DNA from: Xanthobacteraceae bacterium 501b
GTDB lineage: Bacteria; Pseudomonadota; Alphaproteobacteria; Rhizobiales; Xanthobacteraceae
Reading direction: 5' to 3'
DNA length: 64,000 nt
Assembly (NCBI GenBank): GCA_000378025.1
Contig: KB899087.1
Location: 310,001-374,000 of the forward strand
Part shown: piece after piece, positions 6,995 through 38,337 of the stretch
Layout of the letters: every line of letters begins with the position of its first letter
Position numbering within the stretch: the first letter of the stretch is position 1
The notes under the pieces: generated by a model
Database searches by the model: none
The model's input: the letters and a program-made list of their open reading frames with translations, nothing else
What the model was told of the DNA's origin: nothing
Made by a program: the position numbers and the translations under genes

Positions 6995-6997
6995 GCC

Positions 6998-7396
6998 ATG
7001 GAAATGCTCGTCGCCAGCGCCATCGGCCTGATGACCGCGACCGGCCTGTTCCTGATCCTGCAGGGGCGTAGCTTTCCGGTCATTGTCGGCCTGACCTTCC
7101 TCTCCTATGCGGTCAACGCCTTCCTGTTCGCCATGGGCCGGCTCACCGTCGACCGGCCGCCGATCATCACGGCGGGAGCGGCCTATACCGACCCGCTGCC
7201 GCAGGCGCTGGTGCTGACCGCCATCGTCATCTCCTTCGGCATGACGGCGCTGATCGTGGTGCTGGGACTGCGCGGCTTTCTGGAGACCGGCTCCGACCGT
7301 ACCGATCTCAGCCTTGCCGATGCGGCCGAGGAGCATGGCCCGGCGCCGGCCGGCGAGGATGCCCGGCGCGAGCGGGACGGGGCCGCACGGGCATGA
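6998..7396 (+). CDS. mnhC: Na+/H+ antiporter subunit C (MnhC/MrpC)
   Basis: 132 residues with three membrane helices, homologous to complex I subunit NuoK. Family signatures seen are GLTFLSYAVNAFLFAMGRL and DPLPQALVLTAIVISFGMTA. It starts three bases after mnhA behind GAGGCCTGAGCC and overlaps the start of mnhD by four bases, so it is translated within the antiporter operon. The last 25 residues are a charged, family-variable tail. Confidence 0.93.
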   Translation: MEMLVASAIGLMTATGLFLILQGRSFPVIVGLTFLSYAVNAFLFAMGRLTVDRPPIITAGAAYTDPLPQALVLTAIVISFGMTALIVVLGLRGFLETGSDRTDLSLADAAEEHGPAPAGEDARRERDGAARA

Positions 7397-20524: not shown

Positions 20525-22225
20525 ATGGTGCGGCAGAATGTGAGCCTTGCGAACAGGAACGGTCGGCTGGCCTTCCCCGCGCAACCCGCTCCGGCGCAAC
20601 CCGTCAAGGCCCCTCTCGTTCACTGGGATTTTCATACATTCAACGACGCGCACCTTCCGCCACCGAGCGACAAATACAGATACCTACCGGTATCTCTTCC
20701 GATTTTTAAGTACACGCCCGATTTCATGGATGTAAAGCAGGAGCGTATCGGCGATTGTTATCTTCTGTCGGCCATAAACTCGATGATCCGCGTAAAGAAT
20801 CCGAATTTCTTCTACAACATGATAGGAAGCACCGCGGATCATGTGCATGTACGCTTCTATGGGGAGAATGCCGGCGCGATAGTACCGGTCATCGTCCAAG
20901 TTCAGCGCACGATACTGAAGAGGGTCGACGGCAAAAAGGTCGTCGATATGCAAGGCCACAGCGCGCTCTGGCCCTATTTCATCGAAAAGGCCTACGCTTT
21001 CTTTCGGGCCTATTATTTGCAACCTCTGCTGAGGCAGAACCAGATCAAGATTCCCGATCCGACCAAGCCGCAGCCGGCGGCGCCGCACTGGCCGTTCGCC
21101 GACGCAACCTCTCCCGCGCCGGAGCCGGACAGGCGGTATGCCGTTGACTATGTCGAGGCGCTGGAAGGCGGCAATTGCGGGCGCGCCTACCAACATCTCA
21201 CGGGCGAAAAGACAGACGATGCGACGGCCGACATAGACGTTCCCGGCCCGAAGGGCAGGGTATGGATGGATATGAGGGACTATCGCAGCGCGCTGCTCCG
21301 CTTCGTCCTCGACGAGACGCGGGCAAATCCGTTCGCCGAGTCCTGGGACGCAACGTTCGATCGGTTCATTGGCGTGTTGGGCCTCACGGTGCCGGGCCTG
21401 ACGACCTCCCTCGCGGTTCCCGCCGTGCCGGTGAACGACATCGACGTGCGAGCCGCGATCAAGCAGCACATCGCGGACTCGCGGTTGGCCAATCGCTCCG
21501 TCGTCGACAACCTGATCGACATGCTCGACAAGAAAAAGAAGCTGATGCGGGAGGTGCGGAGCACCGACATCCGGCCCTATCTCACGCGGATTGCCCGGAT
21601 GCCCGTATCTCTTGCCGCGAGCGGAATGAAGGATATCGATTTCGGCAAGTTGCTTCTGGATTTTGTCAGGAAATCCTTTCCGGGCAAGCGGGGCACGGGC
21701 GAATACACGGATTACCATGAGGCACTCTTCACGCGCGTGCACGCGGCCTGCGCCGCGAAACCACCTAAGGCGGCGTTCACGTCTACCCGCGACATCGTGC
21801 ATGTCTATGATTTCATCTCCAAGGCCCAAGTACACGAAGGCAAACGCAAAGGGCTAGTTCCAGGTCATGCCTACGAAATATCCGGTACATCGACAATAAA
21901 GGTCAAGCGTCCAACAGGTAATGTCGAGATTCGCTTTCTTCTCTTGCGAAACCCGTGGAATGAATATGTTCGCGGGTACAAGTTCAAGCTCGAAAATGTG
22001 GGCGGCGTCGACATCGTGAAGTCCCTGTCGGCGAGTCCGGTGCAGGATCTGAAAAACCTGCCCGAAAGCACGCTCAAAATCCTGGAACTGCAGGGGCAGG
22101 GACTGAAGAGCCAGGCCGCCCAATTGCAGGCCCGCGCGTCGCAGCAGACGCGCCAGAGCGCCGCCTTCCCCGTCGAACTCTCCGACATCACCAAATTCTT
22201 CGATCAGGTCCAGCTCGGCATCTGA
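20525..22225 (+). CDS. Calpain-like (family C2) cysteine protease
   Basis: 566 residues. The full calpain core is visible: QERIGDCYLLSAINSM with the catalytic Cys78, ALWPYFIEKAYAFF (the ELWP…EKAYA block of calpains), GGNCGRAYQHLTGE near residue 213, GLVPGHAYEI with His448, and LLLRNPWNEYVRG with Asn476. So Cys, His and Asn are all present. The distance from Cys to His, about 370 residues, is much longer than in classical calpains; an extra segment of roughly 200 residues lies before the His. No calcium-binding EF hands and no signal peptide are seen. I take the ATG at 20525; a GTG at 20501 would add eight residues. The first 500 bases have clearly lower GC than the neighbours. First gene of the unusual operon; it may process its co-encoded large proteins. 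Confidence 0.85.
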   Translation: MVRQNVSLANRNGRLAFPAQPAPAQPVKAPLVHWDFHTFNDAHLPPPSDKYRYLPVSLPIFKYTPDFMDVKQERIGDCYLLSAINSMIRVKNPNFFYNMIGSTADHVHVRFYGENAGAIVPVIVQVQRTILKRVDGKKVVDMQGHSALWPYFIEKAYAFFRAYYLQPLLRQNQIKIPDPTKPQPAAPHWPFADATSPAPEPDRRYAVDYVEALEGGNCGRAYQHLTGEKTDDATADIDVPGPKGRVWMDMRDYRSALLRFVLDETRANPFAESWDATFDRFIGVLGLTVPGLTTSLAVPAVPVNDIDVRAAIKQHIADSRLANRSVVDNLIDMLDKKKKLMREVRSTDIRPYLTRIARMPVSLAASGMKDIDFGKLLLDFVRKSFPGKRGTGEYTDYHEALFTRVHAACAAKPPKAAFTSTRDIVHVYDFISKAQVHEGKRKGLVPGHAYEISGTSTIKVKRPTGNVEIRFLLLRNPWNEYVRGYKFKLENVGGVDIVKSLSASPVQDLKNLPESTLKILELQGQGLKSQAAQLQARASQQTRQSAAFPVELSDITKFFDQVQLGI

Positions 22226-22267
22226 GCGGCTTTTCGCAATGTGACGTGTTCAGCAAAGGGCGACGCC

Positions 22268-25200
22268 ATGGCCGGCGGCAATGAGGGGGTGAAGGCGGAC
22301 AGCGTCATTCCACTGTCGAAGATCGACCCGGAACGGTTCGACGCGCTGGGGTTGACGGAGCATGGCTGCGCGCAGCTCGATCTCTGGCTGGCCGCGCTTG
22401 GCGAGAGCGGTGGCGCCGTCTCCGCGCTGCAATTCGAGCTGCCGGTCTATGCCGAGGGCGGTGCGCGCACCACCGCCACGCGCGTGGTCGTCGCTTCCCG
22501 CGAAACGCGCGAGGTGTGGCGTCCGGGCGACGCGTATGCCGCGCTCAAACCCGCGCAGGCCGCCATCGACAAGGCGCTGGGCCTGCGTGCCGCACAGCTT
22601 TGCTATTCCTCCTATGACTTCGCCGCCATCCAATCCGTTGCCGGCACGGTCAGCACCAAGGACCGCACCCTCGTCGCGGACACGGCGCGGGCGCTGCAGG
22701 CGGACTGGCCGCACGATCTGGCGCCGCTGCGCGGAGGCATTAATTTCACCGGCGAGGCGAGCCTGCTGCCGGAGTTCGACGCCGCGCTGCGCAAGCGCTT
22801 CGGCCTCGACGGCAGCGTGCGCGTGGCCGGCAATGTCGGCAAGCTTCCGCAGGGCTACCGGATCGAGGTTAGCACCGCCCTGTCGGTTCCGCCGCTGGAA
22901 CTGCTGGACGGGCGTTTGAACATCGCGCTTCTCCGCGCCAGCATCGGGGCGGAAGGGGTGGGGGCGGGCAACGGCACGCCGCCCTTCTCGCTGGCGCTGC
23001 ACGGCGCCATTACGCTCGACCAGCAGAAGCTGGCGACCTCGATCGAGGTGAATGCCGGCTCCCGGCAGCTCGCTCTCACGGCGGAGGCGCCGGACCTGAT
23101 CAAGGCGGGGGCACTGATCAAGAGCCTCGCCCCCGAGCTGGGCAAGACGCTCAGCGGCACGTTCAGCACCATGGACAAGGTGGTTCCCGGCCTGCAACGC
23201 CTGGAAGTGTCCACCCCGATGGACGGGTTGGACGGCGCGCGGTTCGCCCTCTGGCTGAAATACAGCGAAGCCTTCCCCCTCCTCGATCTGATCCGCATCA
23301 CCCCCAGCCTGTACGTCGCCGGCACCTCCAGCGGCGGGGAATTCACCTTCGATATCGAGCTGACCGGCCGGGGCGAGATCGGCAGTGGGAAGGAGGCGCT
23401 TGCCTTCGAGACGACGCTTTCCCTGCCCGAGGGCAGCTTCCGTGCCACGCTGGTCGAGGGCAGCAAGGTCGTCCTGCCGGAGGACATCGCCGGCAAGGTC
23501 GCCAAGGTGGAGGGGCGCGAAAGCCTGCGGTTGATCGACCTGGTGATCAGCGCGAACACGCGGACGAAGGACTATACCTTCTCGGTCATCACCATCGGCT
23601 TTCTCGAGTACCGGATCGGCAAAGGCTCGCTGCTGATCGGCGATGTCCGCTTCGAGATCGGCAAGTCTGGGGGCGGGAGCGTCAACGCGGCGCTGGAGGG
23701 CTCGCTGGTCGTCGGCGATGTCGAGGCCGACGTCTCGATCAACATCGACAACGGGTTGAGGGGAAAGGTGACGATCCCCCGCCTGCCGATCGGTGCCATT
23801 GCCGCCGATCTGCTGCAGATCGAGGCTCCGGAGGAACTGGCGGCGGCGGAGATCAAGGACTTCGAGGTCGCGCTCACGCTCGGCAAGGAGACCGAGTTCT
23901 CCTTCAAGGCTGAATCGGATTCGGAATTCACCATTGCCGGGCTGAAGGCGAAGCTGGCCAAGCTTGACGTCACCTATGCCGGGAAATTGGATCTTACGGC
24001 CGAAGGCCAGCTGCGCTTCGACACCACCGAGGTGGACCTGAAGCTTATCTACGCCGAGGGGACGTGGAACTTCTCCGTCAGCGCCAGGACCAGCTTCGAT
24101 CTCGGCCGGGCGCTTCGGCCGCTGGCGGCGGAAATCGGCTTCGAGCCACCCTTTCAGGACGGCAGCCTCACCGTCACCCGGATTGACGGCGCCCTGCGGC
24201 TCGGGGCCGAGGGCACCCGCATCGCGCTCAGTTTCGCGTTCAAGACCAAGGACGGCGATTTCCGCCTCACTCTGGTGGCGGCGCGCCAGCTGTCGGGGGC
24301 AAAGGCCGGCTGGGACTACAGCCTCAGAATGGGTCCGGCGACGATCGACTTCCGCAGCCTGCCGGTTGTCGGCGGGGTGATCGGCTCGGCCGCCGATGCC
24401 TTCGCCAAGAGCGGGGGCAAGAAGGAGATCGGCATCGATGCGCTGCGGGTCGGCGTGCTCTCCACGCTTGAGGAAACCGCCATCGCCGAGTTGTTCAAGA
24501 ACCTGCCGACGGAGACGTTTGCCCCGCCGACAGAGGTGACGGGCAAGCTGTCGCTGACCGGCACGCTGCGGCTGCTCGATTACGAGAAGCCGATCGTCTA
24601 TCCGCAGCCGAAGGAGAAGGCCCCGACCAAAGGGGCCGGCGAGGCGCCGCACGCACTGCCGGCGCCCGGCGCCGGCAATCGGGACGCCAAGGCCGGAAAG
24701 GGCGAAGCGCCCGCCAAGGTCGCAGCCGCCGCCAAGGCCCAAACGCCTGCAAAGGGCGAGGCCGGCGAGAAGGCGCCGGCTCCCGCCGCGCCGGAAGACA
24801 AGCCGGCGGACAATCTCAACTGGCTGACGATCCAGCGCGATTGCGGCCCGCTGCACCTGGCCAAGCTCGGCTACGGGGTGCGGCAGGCGGGCGGGAGCTG
24901 GGAGGTTTCCGCGGCGCTGGCGGGCCGGATCAGCCTGTCGGGCGTGCAGCTGGAACTGATCGACGCCGGCGTCACCGTCAACCTCGGCGCGCTCACCGCG
25001 CCACGCGGTCGGCTGAGGGGCATGAGCCTCAGCTTCAAGCGCGGCTCGGTGTCGGTCGAGGGCGGCTTCCTGCAGATGTCGGAAACCGTCTATGGCGGCC
25101 AGCTCAGCGTCCAGCTGCCGAAAATGTCGATCGGCGTCGTCGGCCTGTATGGCACCTATCCGCGTCCCAGAGGTGGCTCTTCCACCTCCCTGTTCATCTA

Positions 25201-27085
25201 TGGAACGCTGAGCCTCACCGGCGGCGCCGGCATTAAGCTGGGCGCGATCACGTTGACCGGCCTGGCGCTCGGCTTCGGCTATAACCGCCGGGTGGTCGTG
25301 CCTGACATCGGCGCGGTGGCGGACTTCCCGCTGGTGGCGCTGGCGATGAAGGAGAGCGCACCCGACGCGGACAAGCCCTCGGCGGGCGATATGCTGGCCA
25401 CGCTGGAAAAGCATCTGCCCTTCGACGAAGGCCAGATGTTCGCCGCGCTGGGGCTGCGCTTCACCATTGCCGAGACGATCGACGCCTTCGCGCTGGCCAT
25501 CGCCCAGTTCGGCAAGGATGTCGAGTTCTCGCTGCTGGGCCTCGCTCGCTTCGAGAAGTCGGTCGGCGACCAGAAACTCTGCCGGGTCGAACTCGCGATC
25601 AAGATGACCTTGCGGCCGGACGAGGGCGTGTTCCTGCTGCAGGCCGAGCTGACCGCCAATTCCTGGGTGCTGGACCCGTCCTGCCGGCTCACCGGCGGCT
25701 TCGCGCTGGGCGTGTGGTTCGCCGGTGCCCGCAAGGGCGATTTCGTGCTCACCATTGGCGGCTATCACCGCGCCTTCAAGCCACCGGCGCATTATCCCGC
25801 CGTGCCGCGCCTCGGCCTCAACTGGGCGGTGACCAACGAACTTACCCTGAAGGGCGAGCTCTATTGCGCGCTCACGCCGTCGCATCTCATGGCCGGAGGG
25901 CGTTTCGAAGCGTCCTTCGTCCATAGCCGCATCAAGGCATGGTTCGTCGCCGCCATCGATTTTCTGATCTGCTGGGCGCCGCTGGAATACAGCCTGGATG
26001 CCGGCATCTCGATCCGCATCGAAGCCGATCTGTGGCTGTTCTCGATCAATCTCAGCCTCGACGTTCAGCTCAGCCTGTGGGGGCCGCCCTTTGCCGGGCG
26101 GGTGAGGGTCAAAATCTCGGTGCTGTCCTTTGAGATCGCTTTTGGCGGCACCAAGGCCACCAGCGAAATCCGCAGCTGGGCGCAGTTCGGCGCGCTGTTC
26201 CTCGACAAGGCCAGCACACATTGGCAGGCGATACCCGCCGCCGGTGCGCCGGTGGAAGCGCCGGCCATTTGCGGGGCGGCGCTGGTCGGCGGGCGGCTGT
26301 CGCAGCCGGGCGACAAGCCGCCGATCGGCCCGTGGCTGGTGCGCGGCGACGAGCTGGTGCTCTCGGTGGCGTCGATCCTTCCAGCCACCACGCTCGCCTT
26401 CGGCACCGTGAAGGGTGCGGTGCCGGCGAAGGGACGCAGCGGCCGCCCTCTCGCGCTGGCCGAGCCGCTGGTTCTGACGGGGACGGCTGGCCGCCATGCC
26501 GCCGAGAGCGCCAATTTCGGCATCGTCCCGCTGGGGATCACCGCGGCGGAGAGCACGCTAACCATCGCCATCGTCAAGGATCTTGCCGGCGGCGGCACCG
26601 AGCCGGTCGATCTCGCCGGCTGGGAGAGCGAGCCCGAGCGCCAGGGCATGCCGGCCGCCCTTTGGGACCGGCAGCCCCCCGACAAGGCGCCCGCCGCCAA
26701 GATGACCGGCGCCTATCTCACCGGCCTCGCCCGCCTGCGCCCCCCCGCCGGCCAGCGTCGTGGCAAGGGCACGGTGGTGGACATCGCCCGCCACCGAGAG
26801 AGCGACCTGATTTTCCGCGAGGGGTCCGTCCGCGACCCGGCCGTGCAGGCCCCCGCCGCGACAGGCGCCGTGCGAGACGTGGCCGCGCGAGACGTGGCCG
26901 CGCGAGACGTGGCCGCGCGAGACGTGGCCGCGCGAGACGTGGCAACGGCGCAGGACGCCCGCCAGGCCGAGCTGGTCACGGCGCTGGGCGGGCTCGGATT
27001 TCCCATCGCGCTGGGCGCCGGGGAGGGCGCGGCGCGTCCCTTCCGCGCTCCGCCGATGAGCCGCAGCTGGAGCCAAGGAGCATAA
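22268..27085 (+). CDS. Giant DUF6603-like protein
   Basis: 1605 residues, largely alternating beta-strand sequence with many internally similar stretches. Around residues 997-1025 it reads TGLALGFGYNRRVVVPDIGA and then VADFPLVALA, the pattern I associate with DUF6603 proteins; the remainder fits the amphipathic, beta-rich character of that family. Residues about 780-850 are a Lys/Ala/Pro linker separating two beta-rich halves. Near the C-terminus the sequence AARDV is repeated four times from a 15-base DNA repeat. No Sec signal peptide or clear membrane helix is visible. Starts at 22268 behind AAAGGGCGACGCC; a GTG at 22241 is less likely. Function unknown. Confidence 0.7.
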   Translation: MAGGNEGVKADSVIPLSKIDPERFDALGLTEHGCAQLDLWLAALGESGGAVSALQFELPVYAEGGARTTATRVVVASRETREVWRPGDAYAALKPAQAAIDKALGLRAAQLCYSSYDFAAIQSVAGTVSTKDRTLVADTARALQADWPHDLAPLRGGINFTGEASLLPEFDAALRKRFGLDGSVRVAGNVGKLPQGYRIEVSTALSVPPLELLDGRLNIALLRASIGAEGVGAGNGTPPFSLALHGAITLDQQKLATSIEVNAGSRQLALTAEAPDLIKAGALIKSLAPELGKTLSGTFSTMDKVVPGLQRLEVSTPMDGLDGARFALWLKYSEAFPLLDLIRITPSLYVAGTSSGGEFTFDIELTGRGEIGSGKEALAFETTLSLPEGSFRATLVEGSKVVLPEDIAGKVAKVEGRESLRLIDLVISANTRTKDYTFSVITIGFLEYRIGKGSLLIGDVRFEIGKSGGGSVNAALEGSLVVGDVEADVSINIDNGLRGKVTIPRLPIGAIAADLLQIEAPEELAAAEIKDFEVALTLGKETEFSFKAESDSEFTIAGLKAKLAKLDVTYAGKLDLTAEGQLRFDTTEVDLKLIYAEGTWNFSVSARTSFDLGRALRPLAAEIGFEPPFQDGSLTVTRIDGALRLGAEGTRIALSFAFKTKDGDFRLTLVAARQLSGAKAGWDYSLRMGPATIDFRSLPVVGGVIGSAADAFAKSGGKKEIGIDALRVGVLSTLEETAIAELFKNLPTETFAPPTEVTGKLSLTGTLRLLDYEKPIVYPQPKEKAPTKGAGEAPHALPAPGAGNRDAKAGKGEAPAKVAAAAKAQTPAKGEAGEKAPAPAAPEDKPADNLNWLTIQRDCGPLHLAKLGYGVRQAGGSWEVSAALAGRISLSGVQLELIDAGVTVNLGALTAPRGRLRGMSLSFKRGSVSVEGGFLQMSETVYGGQLSVQLPKMSIGVVGLYGTYPRPRGGSSTSLFIYGTLSLTGGAGIKLGAITLTGLALGFGYNRRVVVPDIGAVADFPLVALAMKESAPDADKPSAGDMLATLEKHLPFDEGQMFAALGLRFTIAETIDAFALAIAQFGKDVEFSLLGLARFEKSVGDQKLCRVELAIKMTLRPDEGVFLLQAELTANSWVLDPSCRLTGGFALGVWFAGARKGDFVLTIGGYHRAFKPPAHYPAVPRLGLNWAVTNELTLKGELYCALTPSHLMAGGRFEASFVHSRIKAWFVAAIDFLICWAPLEYSLDAGISIRIEADLWLFSINLSLDVQLSLWGPPFAGRVRVKISVLSFEIAFGGTKATSEIRSWAQFGALFLDKASTHWQAIPAAGAPVEAPAICGAALVGGRLSQPGDKPPIGPWLVRGDELVLSVASILPATTLAFGTVKGAVPAKGRSGRPLALAEPLVLTGTAGRHAAESANFGIVPLGITAAESTLTIAIVKDLAGGGTEPVDLAGWESEPERQGMPAALWDRQPPDKAPAAKMTGAYLTGLARLRPPAGQRRGKGTVVDIARHRESDLIFREGSVRDPAVQAPAATGAVRDVAARDVAARDVAARDVAARDVATAQDARQAELVTALGGLGFPIALGAGEGAARPFRAPPMSRSWSQGA
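26881..26940 (+). repeat. In-frame 15-bp tandem repeat (four perfect units)
   Basis: ggccgcgcgagacgt occurs four times without error, preceded by a partial unit (26871-26880). It encodes repeated AARDV near the C-terminus of the giant protein. Being a multiple of three, copy number can change without breaking the frame. Confidence 0.95.
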
Positions 27086-27087
27086 TC

Positions 27088-29094: not shown

Positions 29095-32000
29095 GCGCTG
29101 CCGAGACCGCCGCGAAGGCGGCCACCCCGCTGCTGGTGCCGATCCAGCTCGAAGCGCTGGTGATCGAGGGGGACGCCAGCCCGAGCGGCGAGCTGCTGCT
29201 GGCGCGGCACACCGCCGAACGCGGCGCCTCGCTGCGCTGGAAGGCCACGCGCGCCAATTATGTTCCCGGCCTGCGCACCCTCGTCGATCCCAAGCTCACG
29301 CCCTTTCTGGGCGCGGTGCCGGAGGCGGGCGAGCGGCTGGCTCTGCGCGAAAGCGAGCGCCCGAAAAAGGCCGATCGCGGCGTCTATCTGCGCTGGCTCG
29401 TTCCCGCCGGCCTGCGCAAATCGTTGGCCGAGAACAGCCTGAGCTTTCCCGCCTTGCCGGAACAGTGGCTGATTGTGCGCCTGTTGCGCCGCGCGGCCTC
29501 CCGCCGCGAGGTTGAGCTCAAGGCGTGGGTGATCGACGGGTCGGCCTATCCCGGCGACGCCACCTCGGCCAGCCTGCCGGTGGCGATGCCAGGCAAGACC
29601 GCTTCCGCACCGCCGGAACTGACGGCGACGCCGGTCGGGATCGCCCGCCCGCTGGAGACGTATGACGCCGCGCAACAGGCGCAGATGGCGCACACCACGC
29701 TGACCGCGCTCGGCACCCCCTGGACCGGCTCGCCAACCTTCTCCACCTCGCTGGCGGAGAACCGCAATATTCTGTCCTGGCACGATGGGCTCGCCGATCT
29801 GCGCGACGGGCAGGACAAGCTGCCGCTGGCCTGCGTCAGCTATGCGGTGGTCGGCTGGTATCGCACGCCCGGCGCCGATCCGCTGGTGGCCCTGCCACTG
29901 ACGCTGAAGGACGCGGCCGGCCGGCCGGCCGACCTTGCGGCTGTGCTGGCGCATCTGGGCTGGGCGATGCCGCCCGGCTTGCCTGAGACGCCGGGCCCCT
30001 GCCTGTTCCACGGTGTGACCGCCCATATCAATTTCTGGGACGCGGAGCGCTATCGCGGGCCGCTGCTCGGCTACCCTCAGTCGCCGCCCGCCCATGGCGG
30101 CCTGGCACCGCCGGAGGCGCGGCTGGAGGTGGGGCTCGGCACCTCGGCGCCGGCGGCGCTGGCGGCGCTGGTGTCGGACCAGTGGTGGAAGGACGAGTTC
30201 TCGCCGGACGACCGGCCGAAATGGGCGGTGCTGGAGGGGCACCTGCTGGGGGCGGCCGACCCCGCCGGGCTCGATACCTCCACGCGCCGGCGGCTCGACC
30301 ATCCGCTCGGCTTCACCTCGCTCGATGCCGGGGTGCTGCACCATCTGGTGCAGAGCACCGACGCGGCGGACAAGGGCCCGGCGCCGACGGCGGCGCAGAG
30401 ACAGGAACTGGCCCGGCTCAACGGGCGGCAATCGGCGCTGAATGACGAGGTGCGCGCGCTGGTCACGCGGGGGAATACGCTGCGCATGGCCTGGCGCGAG
30501 CGCATCGTCGCGGTGCGGACCGGCACGCTGCGCCTCAACGCGCAGCCGGACCCGCTGGCCGGGCTGCAGGCCGATCTCGACGCCTTCGCCCAGGCGGTGG
30601 AGACGGCCTCGGCCGCCGCCACCACTCTTGCCGCCTCCGTTGCCGCTCTCAAGGCCGACCTGCCCAAGGGGTGGGAGCTCAATGCCGCGCCCGAGCCGCC
30701 CTTCTGGGTGGTGGCGGACCCGGTGGTGATGCTGGCCGGAATGCCCGGCGCCAGCCGGCGGGCGCTGCCGGAAAAGCTGCCCTGCCGTACGTCGGCAGGC
30801 CTCGTCGCCACCGCGCCTGTTGCGGCCGAGCGCGCCGCCTTTCCCTCGGAGGCACTGACCGCGCTGGCGACAACCCTCACCGCCAAGGCGATGCCGCAGG
30901 CCGGCGCCCTTGCCGACCTGCTGCGCGAGGCGGCGCTGATGGAGCAGGCGGTCGCCGCGCGCGCCTTTGCCGACGCCGCGCCCTTTGCCGGTCAGATCGA
31001 ATGGGAGCAGTGGAAGAACGCGCTGCAGGAGCGCTTCCGCTCCGGGGCGGCGGGCGTTTCGCTCACTCTGGCCGGCGCCGATGGCCGCGCGGTTCTTCCC
31101 GAGACGCTGGTCGCGGTCTGGGGCCAGCAGCCCTGGTCGCCGCTCTATATCGACTGGAACGTGAACTGGCACGCCAGCCCCGCCGGGCTGAAGGACTGGT
31201 CCTTCCCCCTTGGCCAGCAGGCGCTGCATTACGACTATCGACAGCCGGACGGCGTGCCGGCGGCCGGACGCGAGGCGCCTTCGGGGGTCAAGGGCCGCAG
31301 CCTGATGGCGCCGATGGATGGCGGCTTCATCACGACCGCGCTCAACGCCTCGATCGCTGAGGCAAACCTGAACAATGGCGACTTCACCACCCTGACCCGC
31401 ACGCCGCTGGTCGGCCAGGAACTCGCCGGGCTGGGAGCGAGCGTGCGCCGCCTCAACGCCCAGGCGCTGACGCCCCGGCCCGATGCCACGCTGCCCTGGC
31501 TCACCCCGGCGACCGACCAGCGGCTGCAGGCCGGAACCAGCGCGCTGGCGCGGCTCGCCGCCGGCCTGCGCGTCGCCATGCCGGCGCCGCTGCCGCCGCT
31601 GCCCGCCGCGCCGGGCGAGGCGCCTGCGCTCGAAGCCGGCTGGTTCCGCCTCGACCATCTGTGGGTGGTGGACGATTTCGGCCAATGGGCCGAGCCGATC
31701 GCCCGGCCCGGGACACGGGCGCAGCCGCATCCGCGCTCGCGCCTGCGCCTCGGCGCCAGCGTGGACGACACCCAGTGCGGGCCCTTCGCCCGGCCGCCCC
31801 GCCTGACCGAGGGCGCGCGGCTCGATGTTTCCTTTGTCGGGCCGCAGACGTCGATCCGCGGCTGGGTCTATCTCAACCGGCTGGACCATGCGCTTGTTGT
31901 CTGCGCCGGCGATGGGCGGCTGCTGGGCGAGCTGGCGCTTTTGCCCGCCGGGCCGGGCGGGCCCGGGCGCGTTGTCTGGCGCAGCCTTGCCGAGGCCGCA

Positions 32001-32726
32001 CCCGTCGCCCCGGCCGGCATTGGCGATCCGGTGCTCGCCCATCTGGTGGCGTGGCTGGCGGACCCGGCCGAGGGTGCCGACCGGCTGGCGCGGATGCTGG
32101 CGACGGTGGAGGAGGCGCTCCCCACCATTCGGGCGCGCGAGGCCGCCCCCGAGCAGATGCTGATCGGCCGGCCGCTGGCGGTGGTGGTGGCGCAGGCGCG
32201 GCTGCAGTCCGTTCGCGGCACGCCGGGGAAGGCCGCCGGCGCGCTCAGCCTGCCGCTGCGCCTCGGCAACCGGCGGGACCCGCAGGACGGGCTTGTCGGC
32301 CATGCGCAGGGGCTGGCCTTTGCCGCCTTCGCCGGGCTCGAAGGGGCGCCGGCGCCGCAGGCGGGTTTCGCCACTGCCAGCGAGCTGGTGCTGCTCATGG
32401 ACCCGTCGGCCTCGGTGGAAGTCGCCTGCGGCGTGCTGCCGGCGCACGCGGTGAGCCTGCCCGTCGACGAGGTGCGGGACGGGCTGGCCCGGCTGGAGAT
32501 CGGCTTCAGCGTCGGGCCGGTGCTGTTTCACGGCGCGCTGCCGGTCCTGCCGCCGCCGGCCAGCACGGGCGGGACGTGGGAACTGCGCGAGCCCGTGGGC
32601 ACGCTCTCGGCGGTGGCCGCGCTCGGAATCGAACCGCGCTTTGACGGCGCGGCGCCCTCGGCGGGCGAGGGCTGGTTGATCCTGCGCCGCTCGCAAGCGC
32701 CGGTGAAGACCGTGCCAGAGGCCTGA
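29091..32726 (+). CDS. Large hypothetical protein of the calpain/DUF6603 operon
   Basis: 1211 residues from a GTG start that overlaps the previous stop (GTGA) and follows GGGAGATCACGC. No signal peptide or transmembrane helix. Characteristic blocks near the N-terminus are LVDPKLTPFLGAVPEAGERL, GVYLRWLVPAGLR and FPALPEQWLIVRLLRR, a pattern I have seen in large uncharacterised bacterial proteins but cannot name. A central helical stretch around residues 430-530 could form a coiled coil. Possible scaffold or structural component; function not assignable. Confidence 0.7.
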   Translation: MSAAETAAKAATPLLVPIQLEALVIEGDASPSGELLLARHTAERGASLRWKATRANYVPGLRTLVDPKLTPFLGAVPEAGERLALRESERPKKADRGVYLRWLVPAGLRKSLAENSLSFPALPEQWLIVRLLRRAASRREVELKAWVIDGSAYPGDATSASLPVAMPGKTASAPPELTATPVGIARPLETYDAAQQAQMAHTTLTALGTPWTGSPTFSTSLAENRNILSWHDGLADLRDGQDKLPLACVSYAVVGWYRTPGADPLVALPLTLKDAAGRPADLAAVLAHLGWAMPPGLPETPGPCLFHGVTAHINFWDAERYRGPLLGYPQSPPAHGGLAPPEARLEVGLGTSAPAALAALVSDQWWKDEFSPDDRPKWAVLEGHLLGAADPAGLDTSTRRRLDHPLGFTSLDAGVLHHLVQSTDAADKGPAPTAAQRQELARLNGRQSALNDEVRALVTRGNTLRMAWRERIVAVRTGTLRLNAQPDPLAGLQADLDAFAQAVETASAAATTLAASVAALKADLPKGWELNAAPEPPFWVVADPVVMLAGMPGASRRALPEKLPCRTSAGLVATAPVAAERAAFPSEALTALATTLTAKAMPQAGALADLLREAALMEQAVAARAFADAAPFAGQIEWEQWKNALQERFRSGAAGVSLTLAGADGRAVLPETLVAVWGQQPWSPLYIDWNVNWHASPAGLKDWSFPLGQQALHYDYRQPDGVPAAGREAPSGVKGRSLMAPMDGGFITTALNASIAEANLNNGDFTTLTRTPLVGQELAGLGASVRRLNAQALTPRPDATLPWLTPATDQRLQAGTSALARLAAGLRVAMPAPLPPLPAAPGEAPALEAGWFRLDHLWVVDDFGQWAEPIARPGTRAQPHPRSRLRLGASVDDTQCGPFARPPRLTEGARLDVSFVGPQTSIRGWVYLNRLDHALVVCAGDGRLLGELALLPAGPGGPGRVVWRSLAEAAPVAPAGIGDPVLAHLVAWLADPAEGADRLARMLATVEEALPTIRAREAAPEQMLIGRPLAVVVAQARLQSVRGTPGKAAGALSLPLRLGNRRDPQDGLVGHAQGLAFAAFAGLEGAPAPQAGFATASELVLLMDPSASVEVACGVLPAHAVSLPVDEVRDGLARLEIGFSVGPVLFHGALPVLPPPASTGGTWELREPVGTLSAVAALGIEPRFDGAAPSAGEGWLILRRSQAPVKTVPEA

Positions 32727-32740
32727 AAACGGGGATCGGG

Positions 32741-35353
32741 ATGACATATCGCACAAGGTTCTCCACCCTGCTGGCCGCCGCCCTGCTGGCGGCCCTTCCC
32801 AGCCTTGGAGGCGCGCCCGCCACCGCGCAGAGTCCGGCCCCCCTCCCGCCGCCGCTGATCGAGGCGCGGGTGGTGCCCGGCACGCCGCCCACGCTGCAAA
32901 TGGTCGTTGCGCCCAGGCTCGGTGGCGAGGGGGCAAGTGGCCCGCGGGTGGTGCAGATCCTGCTCGATCGCGACAGCCTCGCCGACGACCTCATCCGCGA
33001 ACAGTCCGATGACCTCTGGCAGGATATCGGTTCGGTGAAGGGGGTGCTGCGCGACCCCGTGGGCGACCCGCCCTGGTTCCTGATGCGCAGCGACGGTGCC
33101 GATCCGAAAAAGCTCCGCATCGGCATCGCCAACTACAATCTCAACCAGAGCGACGCCTCGACCGTGAGCCCGGTCAACACGGCGCTGCGCATCTTCCTGC
33201 CGCTGCGCGTGGGCGACAAATCCCTCGCCCTGCAGGTCAGCGCCGGCGACAGCATCGACACGTTGTCGGCCCCCCTGCCGGTCGAGGCGCCGGTGCAGCA
33301 GCCTGCCGTGGTCGATGCCGAGGCCAAGGTCGAGTTCGGCGTCGATGTCGCCGCGCCGAACGCGCTGGCGATGGGCGCCACCGTCACCCTGACCTGGAAA
33401 GTGGCGGACTGCGTCCAGGCGACGTTGAGCGGTCCGATCGATTTTCGCCAGCCGGTTCTGGCGATCAAGCCCATTGACGGCGTGTGTGCGGGCTCGAAGA
33501 AGGTGCTGGCGCTGGGGAACGCCACCTACCAGCTGACGGCGGAACTCACCGGCAAGGCGGATAGCCGCGTCAGCGCCGTCGTCACCAAGACGGTCAGCCT
33601 CGCTGTCCTGCGCTTCGACCAGTTCGCCAATCTGACGCTGACCCCGCCCTCGGTTCTGCCCGGCGGCAAGGTTCGGGCGCGCTGGCACATCCGCGAATTG
33701 CCGGTCGACGACCGGCGCGAGCCGGTGCTGTCCTGGACCGATGCCAATGGCAAACGGCGCCTACAGCGGCTGCCCGCCTCCTCGAGCCAGACGACGTCTG
33801 GCGAGATGAGCTTTACCGTGGCGCAGAACCTGGACGGCGTGGATACGGCGGTACGGCTGCACTATGGCGAGGAAACCCTCGAGCACTCCTTCGATATCGA
33901 GCGCTGGCAGGTCGCCGGGCGTTCGGCGCTCGATACCGGGCCATTGCGCGGCATGGCCTATGCCGGCGGCCGGCTGGTGCTGTGCAGCGAGAAGGGCCTG
34001 TTCCTCTCTGATGTCGGCGCCGGCGGCGGCATCGGCGCGGACAGTGTCGGCAAGGTCAACGACCCGTTCCCGGATTTTTCGCGCGTGCCCATCACCCTTG
34101 GCGATCGCCCGGAGGCGCGCGGTCCCGGCGCCGCCGCCGGCCGGCAGACGATCGAGCAGGCCCCGTGCCTGGCGGTGCGCGCCTTCGACGCCGAGCGCGT
34201 GGCGGCGCTGGTCCAGATCGAGAAGCCGGCCGCCGGCAGTCCCGGCTATGCCGAGCTGACGCTGCTGTCGCCGGCGACCGGGCTGGCGAGCTACCCGGTG
34301 ACCCTGGCCGATGGCCCGGTCGATGCCGGCGCTACCCAGCTGCGGGACTATCAGCTGGGCATGCTGCGCGGGCGGATCATCGTGCAGGTGCAGATCGGCC
34401 CGCGCGACCGCAGCACCGATCTCAATCCCCGCTCCTCGATCCGGGCCTATTCGATCGCCGAGGGCGACATCCGCGCCAGCACGGCCGGCTGGCGGCCCGA
34501 GCCGGCGCTTGCCACCGACGAGCTGCGCCCGCGCTATGGCTGGCACCTGGTGGACGGCTTCGGCGTCGACAATGCGGCGCTGTTCCTGGTGAACGCGATC
34601 AGCGGCGAGACGGCACGCTACGAGGCGAGCACCGCCAGCGTCCAACGGCTGGAAGAGGCCCGGGCCAGCGGCTCCCCGGTCCGGCTGGCGGCGGCGCGCG
34701 AGCGGGTGGAGATCGATTTTCCCACGTCGGCGAGCAGCCTGGGCAAGGAGCAGGCCGCTACGCTGGGGAACGGGCCGATGACCAATGTCGGCGGGGTGCT
34801 GGTCGCGTTCGGGGCAGGGGTGGCCTACAACCCGCAGACCAATCAGTGGCAGCCCGGCGCCTTCGGCGAAGCTGGCGGCAAGGGCAGCGTCGCCGCCTAT
34901 CGCGGCGACGGCGAGCCTCGCCTGTGGCTGATGAAGGCCACTGGCGAAAGGCTCAGCCTGCCGGTGGAAAGCCCGCGCCTGTTCGTCGCCGATTACTTCG
35001 AGAACGGGCGCGCCGCCAGCCTTCCCTATCTGGTGCTCGGCGCCAAGGTGACGGTCCGCAGCCGCGAGGCGCTGAATTGGCGCACCGATCGGCGCACCGT
35101 GCTGGCGAAGGTCAGCGACGCCAAAGAGACGGTCGACTGCACGGTGAAGGGCGTCACCACCCCGGTGCCGATGGTGCTGAGCACCTACGAGCTGCGCTAC
35201 CCCGATCGCGGCCTCGATCTCATCGGCGTGTCCGCCGACGGCAAGACCCGCGTTTCGAAGGCACACAAGAGCAAGGGCAGCTGGGACGTCACCGTCAGCT
35301 CCGATCCCTGCGTGACGGTTCGCGTCGAGCCCGTCGCGGTGGCGGGCCCGTGA
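32741..35353 (+). CDS. Secreted Ig-like/propeller-like protein of the operon
   Basis: 870 residues. It has the only clear Sec signal peptide of the operon (LLAAALLAALPSLGGAPATA, cleavage about residue 29). After it come two or three Ig-like segments (GATVTLTWKVADCVQATLSG; PGGKVRARWHIRELPVD), then from about residue 400 a beta-rich region with repeated short strands (GMAYAGGRLVLCSEKGLFLS) that could be a propeller. It would act in the periplasm or outside the cell. Fourteen bases after the preceding gene. Confidence 0.65.
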   Translation: MTYRTRFSTLLAAALLAALPSLGGAPATAQSPAPLPPPLIEARVVPGTPPTLQMVVAPRLGGEGASGPRVVQILLDRDSLADDLIREQSDDLWQDIGSVKGVLRDPVGDPPWFLMRSDGADPKKLRIGIANYNLNQSDASTVSPVNTALRIFLPLRVGDKSLALQVSAGDSIDTLSAPLPVEAPVQQPAVVDAEAKVEFGVDVAAPNALAMGATVTLTWKVADCVQATLSGPIDFRQPVLAIKPIDGVCAGSKKVLALGNATYQLTAELTGKADSRVSAVVTKTVSLAVLRFDQFANLTLTPPSVLPGGKVRARWHIRELPVDDRREPVLSWTDANGKRRLQRLPASSSQTTSGEMSFTVAQNLDGVDTAVRLHYGEETLEHSFDIERWQVAGRSALDTGPLRGMAYAGGRLVLCSEKGLFLSDVGAGGGIGADSVGKVNDPFPDFSRVPITLGDRPEARGPGAAAGRQTIEQAPCLAVRAFDAERVAALVQIEKPAAGSPGYAELTLLSPATGLASYPVTLADGPVDAGATQLRDYQLGMLRGRIIVQVQIGPRDRSTDLNPRSSIRAYSIAEGDIRASTAGWRPEPALATDELRPRYGWHLVDGFGVDNAALFLVNAISGETARYEASTASVQRLEEARASGSPVRLAAARERVEIDFPTSASSLGKEQAATLGNGPMTNVGGVLVAFGAGVAYNPQTNQWQPGAFGEAGGKGSVAAYRGDGEPRLWLMKATGERLSLPVESPRLFVADYFENGRAASLPYLVLGAKVTVRSREALNWRTDRRTVLAKVSDAKETVDCTVKGVTTPVPMVLSTYELRYPDRGLDLIGVSADGKTRVSKAHKSKGSWDVTVSSDPCVTVRVEPVAVAGP

Positions 35354-35423
35354 GGCGATCGCCCGACCATCGCCGCCCCCGGCATTCCCAAGGGCCGGCA
35401 TTCCCAAGGCAAGGAGCAGGAAG

Positions 35424-36356
35424 ATGAGCGAAGACACCGTGACCCCGCTATGGACTCTCACCCGGGTCAACCAGATCGACGGCGAGAATCTGAGCCTGAC
35501 CCTCGATGGAGAAGTCACGCCCAAGGTGGAGATCACCCCCGAAGGCAAGGCCACCTTCAACACGTCGATGACGGTCGCCGGCGCCATGGTCATGCAGGGG
35601 CCGGCCACGGCCGAGGCCGGCCTCACCGTCAGCGGCTCGGCCTCGGCGACCGGCACCATCGCGGCGGAGCAGGGATTCGTCGGCATGGGGGCGGTGCCGG
35701 TCGGCGCCATCCTCATGTGGTCGGGTGATCCGAAGAAGCTGCCCGCCGGCTGGTACCTGTGCAATGGCGGCGGCTGGCTGGCCAATGGCGACCCCATTCC
35801 GGACCTGCGCAGCCAATTCATCGTCGGCCAGGACTCCCGATCCAATGAGTACAAGCTGGCGGGGAGACGGGGTGGGTCTCCCCAGGGCTCCAAGGTCAAG
35901 GTCCTTCCGAACGCTCAGGCAGGCGCCGCTGATTTCCCGCTGCGCTGGTATGCGCTGGCCTACATCATCTTTGGCGGGCGCGGCGCCAACATTCTCGCCG
36001 ACCCCAACATGCGGGCGGATCTGCGCAATGACCAGTTCATCAACGAGGGCGAGGGCATTTCCTCACCGTCCGGCCGCTATGTCCTGAAAATCGCGACGGG
36101 GCGCAAGCTCCAGCTCTTGGACATGCGGGGCAACGCGGGCGCCACGCCGCTCTGGCGCATCATGCTGGGCGGGTTTGAACGTGAGGGGTCCAAGGCCGTC
36201 ATGCAGGCCGACGGCAACTTCGTCTTTTACAACAAAGACACGGAACCCGTCTTCGCCTCGGATACCAACAATCAGGGTGTGCTGCTGCGTGTAACGGACG
36301 ACGGCAAGGTCCGTGTCGACGATGCCGACGGCAAGCCGGTCTGGTCGAAGCCCTGA
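35424..36356 (+). CDS. Tail-collar-like protein fused to a bulb-type lectin domain
   Basis: 310 residues. The first 90 are repetitive beta sequence (VTPLWTLTRVNQIDGENLSL … TVAGAMVMQG) like phage tail-fibre stalks. Then comes a tail-collar-like block, VPVGAILMWSGDPKKLPAGW and YLCNGG…PDLRSQFIVG. The last 100 residues resemble B-lectin: Q261-A-D-G-N-F-V-F-Y269 fits the Q-x-D-x-N-x-V-x-Y mannose-binding motif. A collar tip joined to a sugar-binding domain suggests binding of a surface glycan. AAGGAGCAGGAAG precedes the ATG. Confidence 0.75.
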   Translation: MSEDTVTPLWTLTRVNQIDGENLSLTLDGEVTPKVEITPEGKATFNTSMTVAGAMVMQGPATAEAGLTVSGSASATGTIAAEQGFVGMGAVPVGAILMWSGDPKKLPAGWYLCNGGGWLANGDPIPDLRSQFIVGQDSRSNEYKLAGRRGGSPQGSKVKVLPNAQAGAADFPLRWYALAYIIFGGRGANILADPNMRADLRNDQFINEGEGISSPSGRYVLKIATGRKLQLLDMRGNAGATPLWRIMLGGFEREGSKAVMQADGNFVFYNKDTEPVFASDTNNQGVLLRVTDDGKVRVDDADGKPVWSKP

Positions 36357-36396
36357 AGCGATTAGGTCACACCAGTCTCACCCGAGGAGCCGCACG

Positions 36397-36996
36397 ATGA
36401 ACGACCAGACCGTGACGCCGAACTGGACCCTGACCCGGGTCAGCCAGGTCGATGGCCGCAATCTCAGCCTCACCTGCGAGGGCAAGAGCGAGCCGGCGCT
36501 GGAAATCACCATCGAAGGCAAGACCACGCTCAACACCCCGCTCACCGTGAACGGGCCGCTCACCGTCACCCAGGCCGTGACGGCGAGCGGCGGCATGCAG
36601 GTCAGCGGCGGCCTTGCTGTCACCGGGCCTATCGAGGCGGCGGGCGGCATTACCGGTCCGGGGATGATGCCGAAAGGCGCGATCATCATGTGGGCGGGCG
36701 ACCCGAAGGATGTGCCCGCCGGCTGGGCCCTGTGCGACGGCAGCCATGGCACCCCGGACATGCGGGCGAAGTTCCCTGTCGGGGCGGATGGCGGCTCTTT
36801 CGGCCTCGGCAAGCCGGGCGGTAAAATCAGTCACCAGCATGCGTTTGAGGCAAAGGTCAAGTTGGATCCGATCCGCTCGGCCGGCGGCACGCACTTCCAG
36901 GTCATCACTCCGGGGGAATATCCGGTCAACGGCGAAACCAAGCCGTCCGATCACCTGCCGCCCTATCTGCCGCTGCATTTCATCACGAAGCTGTAG
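36397..36996 (+). CDS. Tail-collar-domain protein
   Basis: 199 residues. Its first 45 residues are paralogous to the preceding gene (VTPNWTLTRVSQVDGRNLSL), followed by a repetitive stalk (NGPLTVTQAVTASGGMQVSG) and a collar domain (PKGAIIMWAGDPKDVPAGWA, LCDGSHGTPDMRAKFPVGAD), ending with HLPPYLPLHFITKL, the usual collar C-terminus. There is no lectin extension. GAGGAGCCGCACG precedes the ATG at 36397. Probably forms trimeric fibre tips or stalk pieces with its neighbour. Confidence 0.78.
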   Translation: MNDQTVTPNWTLTRVSQVDGRNLSLTCEGKSEPALEITIEGKTTLNTPLTVNGPLTVTQAVTASGGMQVSGGLAVTGPIEAAGGITGPGMMPKGAIIMWAGDPKDVPAGWALCDGSHGTPDMRAKFPVGADGGSFGLGKPGGKISHQHAFEAKVKLDPIRSAGGTHFQVITPGEYPVNGETKPSDHLPPYLPLHFITKL

Positions 36997-37080
36997 ACGC
37001 CCGCATCGGGTGCAGGACACGCTGAAGGCGAACTGGCGCGGCTTTACAGCCCCCGGAGCGAGACGGTAGAAAATAATCGC

Positions 37081-38337
37081 ATGCGGCGCGGGGCGGATGC
37101 CTCGCATCAACGCAGCGATTGGGCGGGCATGAGCGGAACGTATAGGCACGCCGTGCGCAAGGCTGATCCAGCCTTTGCGCTGCTGCTCCAGCTGTGCGCG
37201 CGGGCGGCGCGGCACGGGGCAGGGGCGTCCGTCGCTCCGGCCGGCCGGGTCGAGGATTGGCCCGCCTTCCTACACCTCGTCGACCGGCACCGCGTGGCCG
37301 GCCTCGTTCATCTGGCGCTGGGTCGCGAGGCGGCTTCTGTGCCAGACGACGTGCGCCAGTCCATCGCGCAGAAGGCCGGGGGGCTGGCGCGCACCAACCT
37401 CGCCATGGTGGCCGCCATCATCGGCCTGCAGAAGGCGTTCGACGCCGCCGGCATTGGGGCGGTCTTCTTCAAGGGCGCGCTGGTCGGCCAGCGGGCCTAT
37501 GGGTCGGTGGCGGTTAAGCACGGCAAGGACATCGACTTCCTGGTGCGGCCCGACGATCTGGCGGCGACCTTCGCGCTGCTCGCGGGCGAGGGCTACCAGC
37601 CGGTCTTTCCGCAGGCGCCGCTGACCCCGGCCAAGATCGACGCGCTGCGCGCCTTCCAGATTGAAGCGGTCATGGTCGATCCGGCGTGCGGCGTGCAACT
37701 GGAGCCGCATTGGCGGCTCACCGAGAACCGCCGGCTGCTGCCGCTCGCACCGCTTCTGGCGGGTGCGGGAAAGCGCGAGAGCCTGGGCGGGGTCGCCATT
37801 CGCGGCTTCCATCCCGACGACGAGTTCGCCTATCTCTGCGTGCACGGTGTCCGCAGCGGCTGGTTCCGCCTCAAATGGCTGGCCGATCTGCACGCCCTGT
37901 TGGCCGGGCTGCCGGAAGAGGAACGGCTGCGCCTCTATCGCCATGCCGAGCGCCGGGGCGCCGGGCCTGCCGCCCTGCTCGCCTTCGGCCTGTGCCGCGA
38001 GATGTTCGGGTTGCCGGTGCCGGCGGCGCTGGCGCGTCCCGTCGAGGCGCCGTTGCAGAAGGCGATGCACCGCATCAGCGTCGCCAACCTCCAGGATGAA
38101 TACCCGCAATTCTCCCTCCGCCAGGTGGTGGTGCTGCCGATGTTGCACGCCCTGGCCTGCGGTCCCGGCCATGTGATGGCCGAGGTGCTGCGCTGGACGG
38201 TGAACTGCCAGGACGCGCTCGACGTGCCGCTGCCGCGCCGGCTGTATTTCCTCTACCCGCTGCTGCGCGCCCCGCTCTGGTTCGGGCGGCTGCTGCGCGG
38301 CACGACCCGGCTGGGCCGCAGGACGGTCCGCGTTTGA
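37081..38337 (+). CDS. Nucleotidyltransferase-fold protein (NTP_transf_5 family)
   Basis: 418 residues. The core has the minimal nucleotidyltransferase pattern FFKGALVGQRAYG followed by KHGKDIDFLVRPDDL, with Lys131, Asp150 and Asp152. This is the family (PF14907) found beside exopolysaccharide and peptide-modification clusters; its reaction is not established. The C-terminal part (FGLCREMFGLPVPAALARPV) is helical. A second ATG at 37129 is possible. It follows the collar protein by 84 bases on the same strand and is taken as the last gene of the operon. Confidence 0.75.
   Translation: MRRGADASHQRSDWAGMSGTYRHAVRKADPAFALLLQLCARAARHGAGASVAPAGRVEDWPAFLHLVDRHRVAGLVHLALGREAASVPDDVRQSIAQKAGGLARTNLAMVAAIIGLQKAFDAAGIGAVFFKGALVGQRAYGSVAVKHGKDIDFLVRPDDLAATFALLAGEGYQPVFPQAPLTPAKIDALRAFQIEAVMVDPACGVQLEPHWRLTENRRLLPLAPLLAGAGKRESLGGVAIRGFHPDDEFAYLCVHGVRSGWFRLKWLADLHALLAGLPEEERLRLYRHAERRGAGPAALLAFGLCREMFGLPVPAALARPVEAPLQKAMHRISVANLQDEYPQFSLRQVVVLPMLHALACGPGHVMAEVLRWTVNCQDALDVPLPRRLYFLYPLLRAPLWFGRLLRGTTRLGRRTVRV

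Follow-up and report, generated by a model that had tools for sequence, protein, structure and literature searches.

The window considered here is a 64,000-nucleotide stretch of the forward strand of contig KB899087.1 (positions 310,001 to 374,000), deposited as Xanthobacteraceae bacterium 501b. It lies on an Ancylobacter chromosome, in a genome of 5.1 Mb, and its positions 20525-38337 hold eight genes, all on the + strand, among which are a calpain-type protease, a giant protein of the DUF6603 family and two collar-type fibre proteins. The close spacing of these genes, proposed in a preliminary description made from the DNA letters alone, is borne out by their coordinates, with gaps of 15, 2, -4, 14, 70, 37 and 84 bases in order if orf4 starts at the GTG at 29091 (a GTGA overlap); the alternative, longer start at the TTG at 29076 would give an overlap of -19 instead of -4. 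Comparison of gene neighbourhoods points to a smaller recurring unit within this operon, composed of the DUF6603 protein, two large proteins here called Orf3 and Orf4, and a tip protein.

The first gene (20525..22225) encodes a calpain-family (C2) cysteine protease at what will be described as an exchangeable enzyme position. Its Pfam C2 score of 47.6 bits (cut-off 23.8) places it in the family, and the catalytic residues Cys78, His448 and Asn476 are kept in six of seven aligned relatives, while in the seventh the central part of the protein is missing; by sequence the protease is complete, as had been claimed. The DUF6603 protein follows as core component 1 (22241..27085; 1614 residues), and matches PF20248 at 420.8 bits (cut-off 27) over profile positions 1-497 of 502. 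Its closest named relatives are from Ancylobacter vacuolatus and A. rudongensis, and its C-terminal tail contains an in-frame RDVAA repeat of about five copies, the last altered (window ~26860-26945). Core components 2 and 3 are Orf3 (27088..29094; 668 residues) and Orf4 (29091..32726; ~1211 residues), both conserved across loci. Neither of these large proteins belongs to a named family (nothing in Pfam at E≤1 or in NCBIfam at E≤0.1), in agreement with their first description as lacking recognised domains.

Orf5 (32741..35353) had been called a secreted Ig-like protein. A signal-peptide-like N-terminus is visible by eye, from which the protein is probably exported; the Ig-like part is less secure, as the Pfam match is weak and sub-cut-off (E 0.15) and a second family scan gave none at E≤0.05. 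The gene appears to be a lineage-specific accessory, since its homologues among the examined loci occur only in Ancylobacter, an Azospirillum metagenome bin (L040), Eilatimonas (L041) and a Bacteroidota bin (L042). Two collar-type tip or fibre proteins come next, the first with a lectin, and both were recognised at the outset. Protein 1 (35424..36356) matches the PHROGs family 'tail collar fiber protein' (5.7e-13), and its lectin-like C-terminus is indicated by a partial NCBIfam match to NF033557 (residues 253-308, 4.8e-10, 39.2 bits where the cut-off for the whole protein is 275) and by the motif QADGNFVFY at 261, which we take to be a bulb-type lectin motif. Protein 2 (36394..36996), for which there is no lectin match, is identified by PHROGs as 'tail protein' (1.2e-11) and 'tail collar fiber protein' (1.4e-10). 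Both lie below the Pfam Collar cut-off of 24 bits, at 17.8 and 23.3 bits, respectively. The last gene (37081..38337) encodes the nucleotidyltransferase-fold protein that had been predicted (PF14907, 155.6 bits), here considered flanking or accessory. A patatin-like gene, identified by eye, lies 3' of the operon (window 38413-39561), and is likewise found downstream of the operon in three further Ancylobacter genomes and of a decayed copy in a fourth (G002).

The wider distribution of these genes was examined by a pattern scan with DUF6603 over 84,980 species genomes, which yielded 133 encoding relatives. The best 80 of these 133, five of them from Ancylobacter, form the locus set, and Orf3 and Orf4 were detected in it by profile searches of the open reading frames (ORFs). 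Orf3 is present in 77 of the 80 loci, a biased rate given that the set was picked by DUF6603 similarity to trio-linked sequences, Orf4 is present in 74, and 73 loci have both. The arrangement is tight: Orf3, which is frequently divided into two genes, immediately follows DUF6603 in 76 of 77 loci (it is upstream in L050), at a median gap of 13.5 bases and within 100 bases in 73 of the 76. Orf4 is more mobile, lying 3' of Orf3 in 54 loci and upstream in 19, of which 13 are from Actinomycetota. Some absences coincide with contig ends, which fall within or at Orf3 in L047 and L055 and 0.6 kb past DUF6603 in L072. In L057 and L092 no Orf3 was found with ~3 kb of sequence left, L057 having an upstream Orf4 match, and in L077 and L099 no Orf4 was found with ~7-8 kb left; these four loci are exceptions, either real or undetected.

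A check independent of linkage was provided by searching the same genome draws with PF20248 and with Orf3, in 543 genomes of two phyla, each draw including its centre genome, already known to carry both. DUF6603 was found in 9 of 296 Actinomycetota and Orf3 in 5 of the 296, all within the nine; the corresponding figures for Bacteroidota are 13 of 247 (one sub-cut-off) and 11 of 247, again all within the thirteen. Altogether, the 16 Orf3 genomes fall within the 22 DUF6603 genomes of the 543 (hypergeometric 3.4e-26), and the Orf3 matches adjoin the DUF6603 matches. In five of the 16 genomes the Orf3 match is weak (E 2e-8 to 3e-4), and the four of these that were inspected belong to a second DUF6603 branch discussed below. 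The linkage of the core is far beyond chance over the locus set and the draws, and by sequence comparison DUF6603, Orf3 and Orf4 constitute a conserved core. The rows of the core tree (FastTree, 81 rows) span at least nine phyla, with four rows, including that of the window, lacking a phylum label and many representing metagenome bins. Among 72,556 plasmid records, 8 carry relatives of Orf3 (Streptomyces, Embleya and Paenibacillus). Two Orf3 genes are found ~28 kb apart in Herpetosiphon aurantiacus (L065; G352:C1:2431262 and 2459063).

Homologues of the core are thus linked in very distant genomes, and the operon stands as part of a linked, conserved system. What does not stand is a single system of all eight genes. 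The calpain and the Ig-like protein occur in few of the examined loci, and the nucleotidyltransferase was found only in Ancylobacter, most of the other stretches fetched being too short for its absence to be certain.

The gene before DUF6603 often encodes an exchangeable enzyme, as sequence comparison shows. This position was read by a mechanical rule, an ORF of at least 250 residues before DUF6603, by which 7 of the 80 loci are unreadable and 73 readable; L054 and L074 (with MBL proteins) and L097 (with a lipase) escape the rule because their DUF6603 ORFs are called too long, as does L059, whose lipase lies two genes upstream. By Pfam or similarity, the classes found are MBL-fold proteins, EEP-family proteins, class 3 lipases, a glutamine deamidase with its tandem relative, a trypsin-like protein (partial) and calpains, the last in Ancylobacter and one Azospirillum bin. 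In 33 of the readable loci the enzyme could be assigned, to one of six classes (22 MBL, 4 calpain, 4 EEP, 1 trypsin, 1 deamidase and 1 lipase). Some single matches are under the Pfam cut-off (e.g., L075, L114 and L110); the EEP label of L113 reflects similarity to L093 only, and the MBL labels of L045 and L052 similarity to other members only. An HxDxDH-type motif is present in 18 of the 22 proteins of the main MBL set, which includes the plasmid-borne L014 from outside the 80 loci, and in all three of a second MBL set, and GD(F/L)N and SDH are kept in all four EEP proteins. The EEP proteins occupy four separate branches of the core tree, although long branches lead to two of these four rows. 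With 39 of its 81 rows labelled by enzyme class, the tree requires 8 changes for 6 states. The MBL-fold slot protein of L087 matches LmuA (1.4e-21) and Avs1a (7.8e-10) in PADLOC, the single match among four slot proteins scanned outside the window. When a docking region common to different slot classes was sought, the sole match was between the L043 MBL protein and an unassigned protein of L063.

Several further observations concern this position and its neighbours. L066 has related tandem proteins in the enzyme position (5466-6611 and 6627-7724), the second with a Gln_deamidase_2 domain, and the slot protein of L101 (6080-7801) resembles a nucleotidyltransferase by eye (KGG...DFD), with no Pfam match. 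In L070 and L082 a sub-cut-off alpha/beta-hydrolase match lies inside the giant DUF6603 protein itself. Finally, a recurrent neighbour of ~590 residues (cluster 9) occurs at L061:17372-19063 and in five related loci, mostly clostridial, with a Hint domain (PF05203, 1e-8) in the L061 copy.

The preliminary description had regarded the operon as encoding a proteolytically processed assembly, in which the calpain would cleave the other proteins to give a mature surface structure. The presence of the catalytic residues and the operon-like spacing agree with such a role. However, other enzyme classes occupy the calpain position elsewhere, L040 is the only one of the 80 loci from outside Ancylobacter to match the calpain profile, and in one Ancylobacter genome (G009; L023/L024) the calpain is cut in frame to 63 + 63 terminal residues, the catalytic middle gone, with the core still open. 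Processing by the calpain is accordingly very improbable. Because other enzymes fill its position and the G009 core persists with a calpain lacking its catalytic middle, the calpain is probably an exchangeable cargo rather than a processing protease.

Within the genus, DUF6603 is above the Pfam cut-off in 8 of 30 Ancylobacter genomes, the window's own included, and six of these have an operon of the window type. The version in G006 is strongly divergent, and related to those of Pannonibacter (L071) and Kangiella (L106), while G002 holds a decayed copy in which the calpain is present and the core eroded. In G028 the operon is missing between the LysR gene and the nucleotidyltransferase gene, which there adjoin, and in G013 the operon, with the nucleotidyltransferase gene beside it, lies apart from the LysR gene, which is on another contig. 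Full calpains could be compared in ten pairs of Ancylobacter operons, at 39-64% identity, against 65-96% for the core genes of the same pairs; in nine of the ten, no operon gene is less conserved than the calpain. Over all 15 pairs, five of which involve the G009 remnant, the least conserved gene is the calpain in 12, collar 1 in two and collar 2 in one. Synonymous sites, compared between the window operon and four relatives (G026, G023, G016 and G013), tell of the same difference. Against G026 the proportion of synonymous differences (pS) of the calpain is 0.84, which is saturated, such that no ratio of nonsynonymous to synonymous distance (dN/dS) was obtainable for it, and the synonymous distance (dS) is 0.13-0.22 for the core, 0.23 for Orf5 and 0.42 for collar 1. 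Against the other three relatives, dS is 1.26-1.53 for the calpain and 0.22-0.74 for the other operon genes. Since the synonymous distance of the calpain far exceeds that of the other operon genes, these values suggest that the calpain was swapped for another version, and did not merely undergo fast protein change, which again makes it a probable cargo. The core genes have dN/dS of 0.17-0.46 in the four relatives, which indicates purifying selection; collar 1 has 0.51-0.60, the top measurable value in three of the four comparisons, with collar 2 higher against G016 (0.55 vs 0.51).

These data also bear on whether the region is a decayed or one-off mobile element, or a remnant prophage with no function of its own. 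Its patchiness in the genus, the decayed G002 copy, the empty site in G028 and the plasmid-borne relatives are of the kind expected from such an element. Set against them are the open operon frames of five other Ancylobacter genomes, the G009 calpain excepted, the selection on the core and its linkage across phyla. Additionally, neither DUF6603 nor Orf3 gave a tblastn match in 50,697 phage records, and no relative was confirmed in one pattern scan of IMG/VR. As the core is conserved across phyla, the remnant explanation is refuted for it, and for the region as a whole we give it hardly any credence.

At the other end of the core, a gene near Orf4 encodes an exchangeable protein with domains of the binding type. 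A gene lies closely 3' of Orf4 in 61 loci; in window-type operons this gene is Orf5, and the collar proteins are next. Single linkage with the collar proteins collected a tip cluster of 70 ORFs from 61 loci, of which 36 were scanned, giving LamG in nine, Kelch in eight, collar in two, the S74 chaperone in two and other families in one or two each. A count of short beta-motifs was tried as a sign of fibre shafts and was unconvincing: the mean is 1.1 per 1000 residues in the 61 post-Orf4 genes vs 0.35 in 1119 other ORFs, and none has 10 or more.

A second DUF6603 branch (L028, L034/L035 and L139-L145) extends the distribution, and is carried by one Ancylobacter genome (G018). In all seven genomes of L139-L145 a DUF6603 protein of 974-1186 residues is followed by a protein of 926-1161 residues and then by one of 1563-2101 residues; six of the seven have an additional protein of 594-698 residues, and in six of seven a gene lies immediately upstream of DUF6603. 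The 926-1161-residue protein shows distant homology to Orf3 across ~270 residues at its N-terminus (probability 96.7%, E 4.7e-10). The genes upstream encode S8 subtilases in two cases and, once each, an M64 peptidase, a WD40 protein, a protein weakly matching PhoD and a protein with no match. Nine other second-branch proteins gave no Pfam match above the cut-off, and PDB sequence profiles gave none for proteins of this branch. The protein at L034:4110-7163 has a weak Pfam match to 'Pre-toxin TG'.

Structure prediction gives some indication of what the core may look like. The confident AlphaFold2 model of Orf3 (pLDDT 89.7, pTM 0.86) resembles nothing in PDB or BFVD at E≤0.001, and PDB sequence profiles likewise gave no match for this protein. 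Residues 430-1500 of DUF6603 were modelled, with moderate confidence, as nearly all long antiparallel strands (pLDDT 80, pTM 0.61), for which Foldseek returned 22 matches at E≤0.001 (best 6e-7), mainly to LptD, ushers, porins, SlpA-type outer membrane proteins and ApoB100. In PDB sequence profiles, Orf4 has six matches at E 0.19-0.63, mostly to chains that are helical or coiled-coil by name, and DUF6603 has one at E 0.8.

Calpains with WXG100 domains have been suggested as toxins in passages of the main text, and in a reviewer's comment, of a published article (PMC4631099). This suggestion, together with the constant core, the swappable enzyme, the swappable tip and the family that one slot protein has in common with LmuA and Avs1a, leads us to an effector complex, and a modular effector system with a conserved core, an exchangeable enzyme and an exchangeable binding tip is the interpretation that we favour, at about even odds. 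In such a system, DUF6603, Orf3 and Orf4 would assemble into a soluble complex, with the slot enzyme, here the calpain, as its cargo or effector. The tip proteins would bind a target surface, here probably a glycan, and let the enzyme work on the target or within it. Its release by the producing cell and its passage across a membrane would form the weakest step of this scheme, in which the strand-rich DUF6603 protein would be the only candidate for a membrane-active part; only the tip domains suggest that the system may act outside the cell. A bolder proposal, which we advance tentatively and judge less likely than not, is that DUF6603-Orf3-Orf4 may form the centre of a protein-delivery particle that works without contraction and belongs to a new class, with no relation to phage tails or Tc toxins, present in at least nine phyla and a distant second branch, with interchangeable enzymes and tips and with DUF6603 as housing or membrane-crossing part.

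A number of results weigh against the modular effector system. The rate of 77 in 80 is biased by the choice of loci, as stated, and 6 of the 22 DUF6603 genomes in the draws have no Orf3 match, three of which (L143-L145) carry the distant Orf3-like gene in the place of Orf3. Many loci do not have a recognisable enzyme or tip: 25 of the 73 readable loci lack an ORF of at least 250 residues in the enzyme position, 15 more have an ORF with no assigned fold, and at least 15 of the 36 scanned tip proteins match none of LamG, Kelch, collar or S74. The third gene of the second branch, compared with Orf4 at its N-terminus only, has no detectable relation to it (hhalign probability 0.2%), and one genome (G297) has the same families in a different order, with DUF6603 last. 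The fold matches of DUF6603 to LptD, ushers and ApoB100 have TM-scores of at most 0.27 among the 50 matches listed, values too low for a fold identity to be claimed. No secretion, lysis or immunity genes were recognised within the operon. Lastly, a crude hydropathy test, run at a threshold of 1.8 because one of 2.2 missed the evident signal peptide of Orf5, found transmembrane-like stretches in 1 of 102 Orf3, 2 of 42 slot and 8 of 82 Orf4 proteins, and N-terminal export-like stretches in 0 of 102, 1 of 42 and 14 of 82, respectively. As membrane and export stretches are mostly absent from Orf3 and the slot proteins, these parts may simply be cytoplasmic.

This scarcity of export-like stretches is also an argument for the main rival, an intracellular conflict or defence complex in which a Kelch, LamG or collar protein senses an invader and the enzyme then damages its own cell in abortive infection. 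The L087 match to LmuA and Avs1a and the patchy distribution among the Ancylobacter genomes are consistent with it. On the other side, none of six tested window proteins (the two collar proteins excluded) matches a PADLOC model, Pfam and NCBIfam scans found no NTPase family among the eight window proteins, and G028 has the nucleotide-related PF14907 gene but not the operon. Domains of the collar, bulb-lectin, LamG and endosialidase-chaperone types are, moreover, typically extracellular. We consider this rival unlikely, yet deserving of serious attention. Less probable still is an enzyme complex, secreted or bound to the surface, that would process nutrients or matrix, held on glycans by its tips as the enzyme degrades nearby substrate. 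The assigned slot proteins are mostly of hydrolase-type folds, glycan-binding-type folds are common in the tip position and Orf5 looks exported, all of which would suit this role. Glutamine deamidases, MBL-fold and EEP enzymes are unusual as nutrient hydrolases, however, and export-like N-termini are rare in slot enzymes and were found in no Orf3 protein, though Orf4 has its 14; cassette replacement would also fit an antagonistic role better.

The system is apparently widespread and undescribed, and a search of open-licence literature found no paper on DUF6603 or describing the system. Through it, DUF6603 and two large families without names are connected, in bacteria very far apart, with enzymes and tips that can be interchanged. 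If its enzymes do reach chosen targets, it would be a delivery or warfare device unrelated to those known, and could supply pairs of enzyme and targeting part; were its action inside the cell, it would be a conflict system not yet described. Either way, scattered hypothetical genes become a testable system.

Among known systems, contractile injection systems and tailocins are alike in having a conserved core, an exchangeable effector and an exchangeable collar or lectin fibre. They differ in that the sheath families PF04984 and PF05943 have 0 matches in the whole own genome (against 3 of 14 and 1 of 14, respectively, in the control rings), as the first claim that contractile-injection machinery is absent would have it. 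Additionally, of the six window proteins scanned with PHROGs only the two collar proteins gave matches, with none for DUF6603, Orf3, Orf4 or Orf5 and thus no phage structural protein beside the collar genes as would mark a prophage or tailocin; by fold comparison, Orf3 matches no viral protein at E≤0.001. Tc toxins likewise combine large soluble subunits, a variable enzymatic part and glycan-binding receptor domains, whereas the eight window proteins have no Tc or RHS-type Pfam family at E≤1 and are not Tc toxins by this measure. Polymorphic toxins share with the present system calpain-type enzymes as possible secreted toxins, and the Hint domain of the clostridial neighbour recalls them; unlike in those, the enzyme here is a separate gene beside a three-protein core, with no trafficking domain recognised. 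With Lamassu (LmuA) and Avs1 the common element is the related MBL-fold enzyme of L087, but the other nine of ten tested proteins match no PADLOC model, the neighbours of L087 being only partly covered. The DUF6603 protein is itself a member of PF20248, a family described as of unknown function, to which the present comparison adds a linkage to Orf3, Orf4, enzymes and tips.

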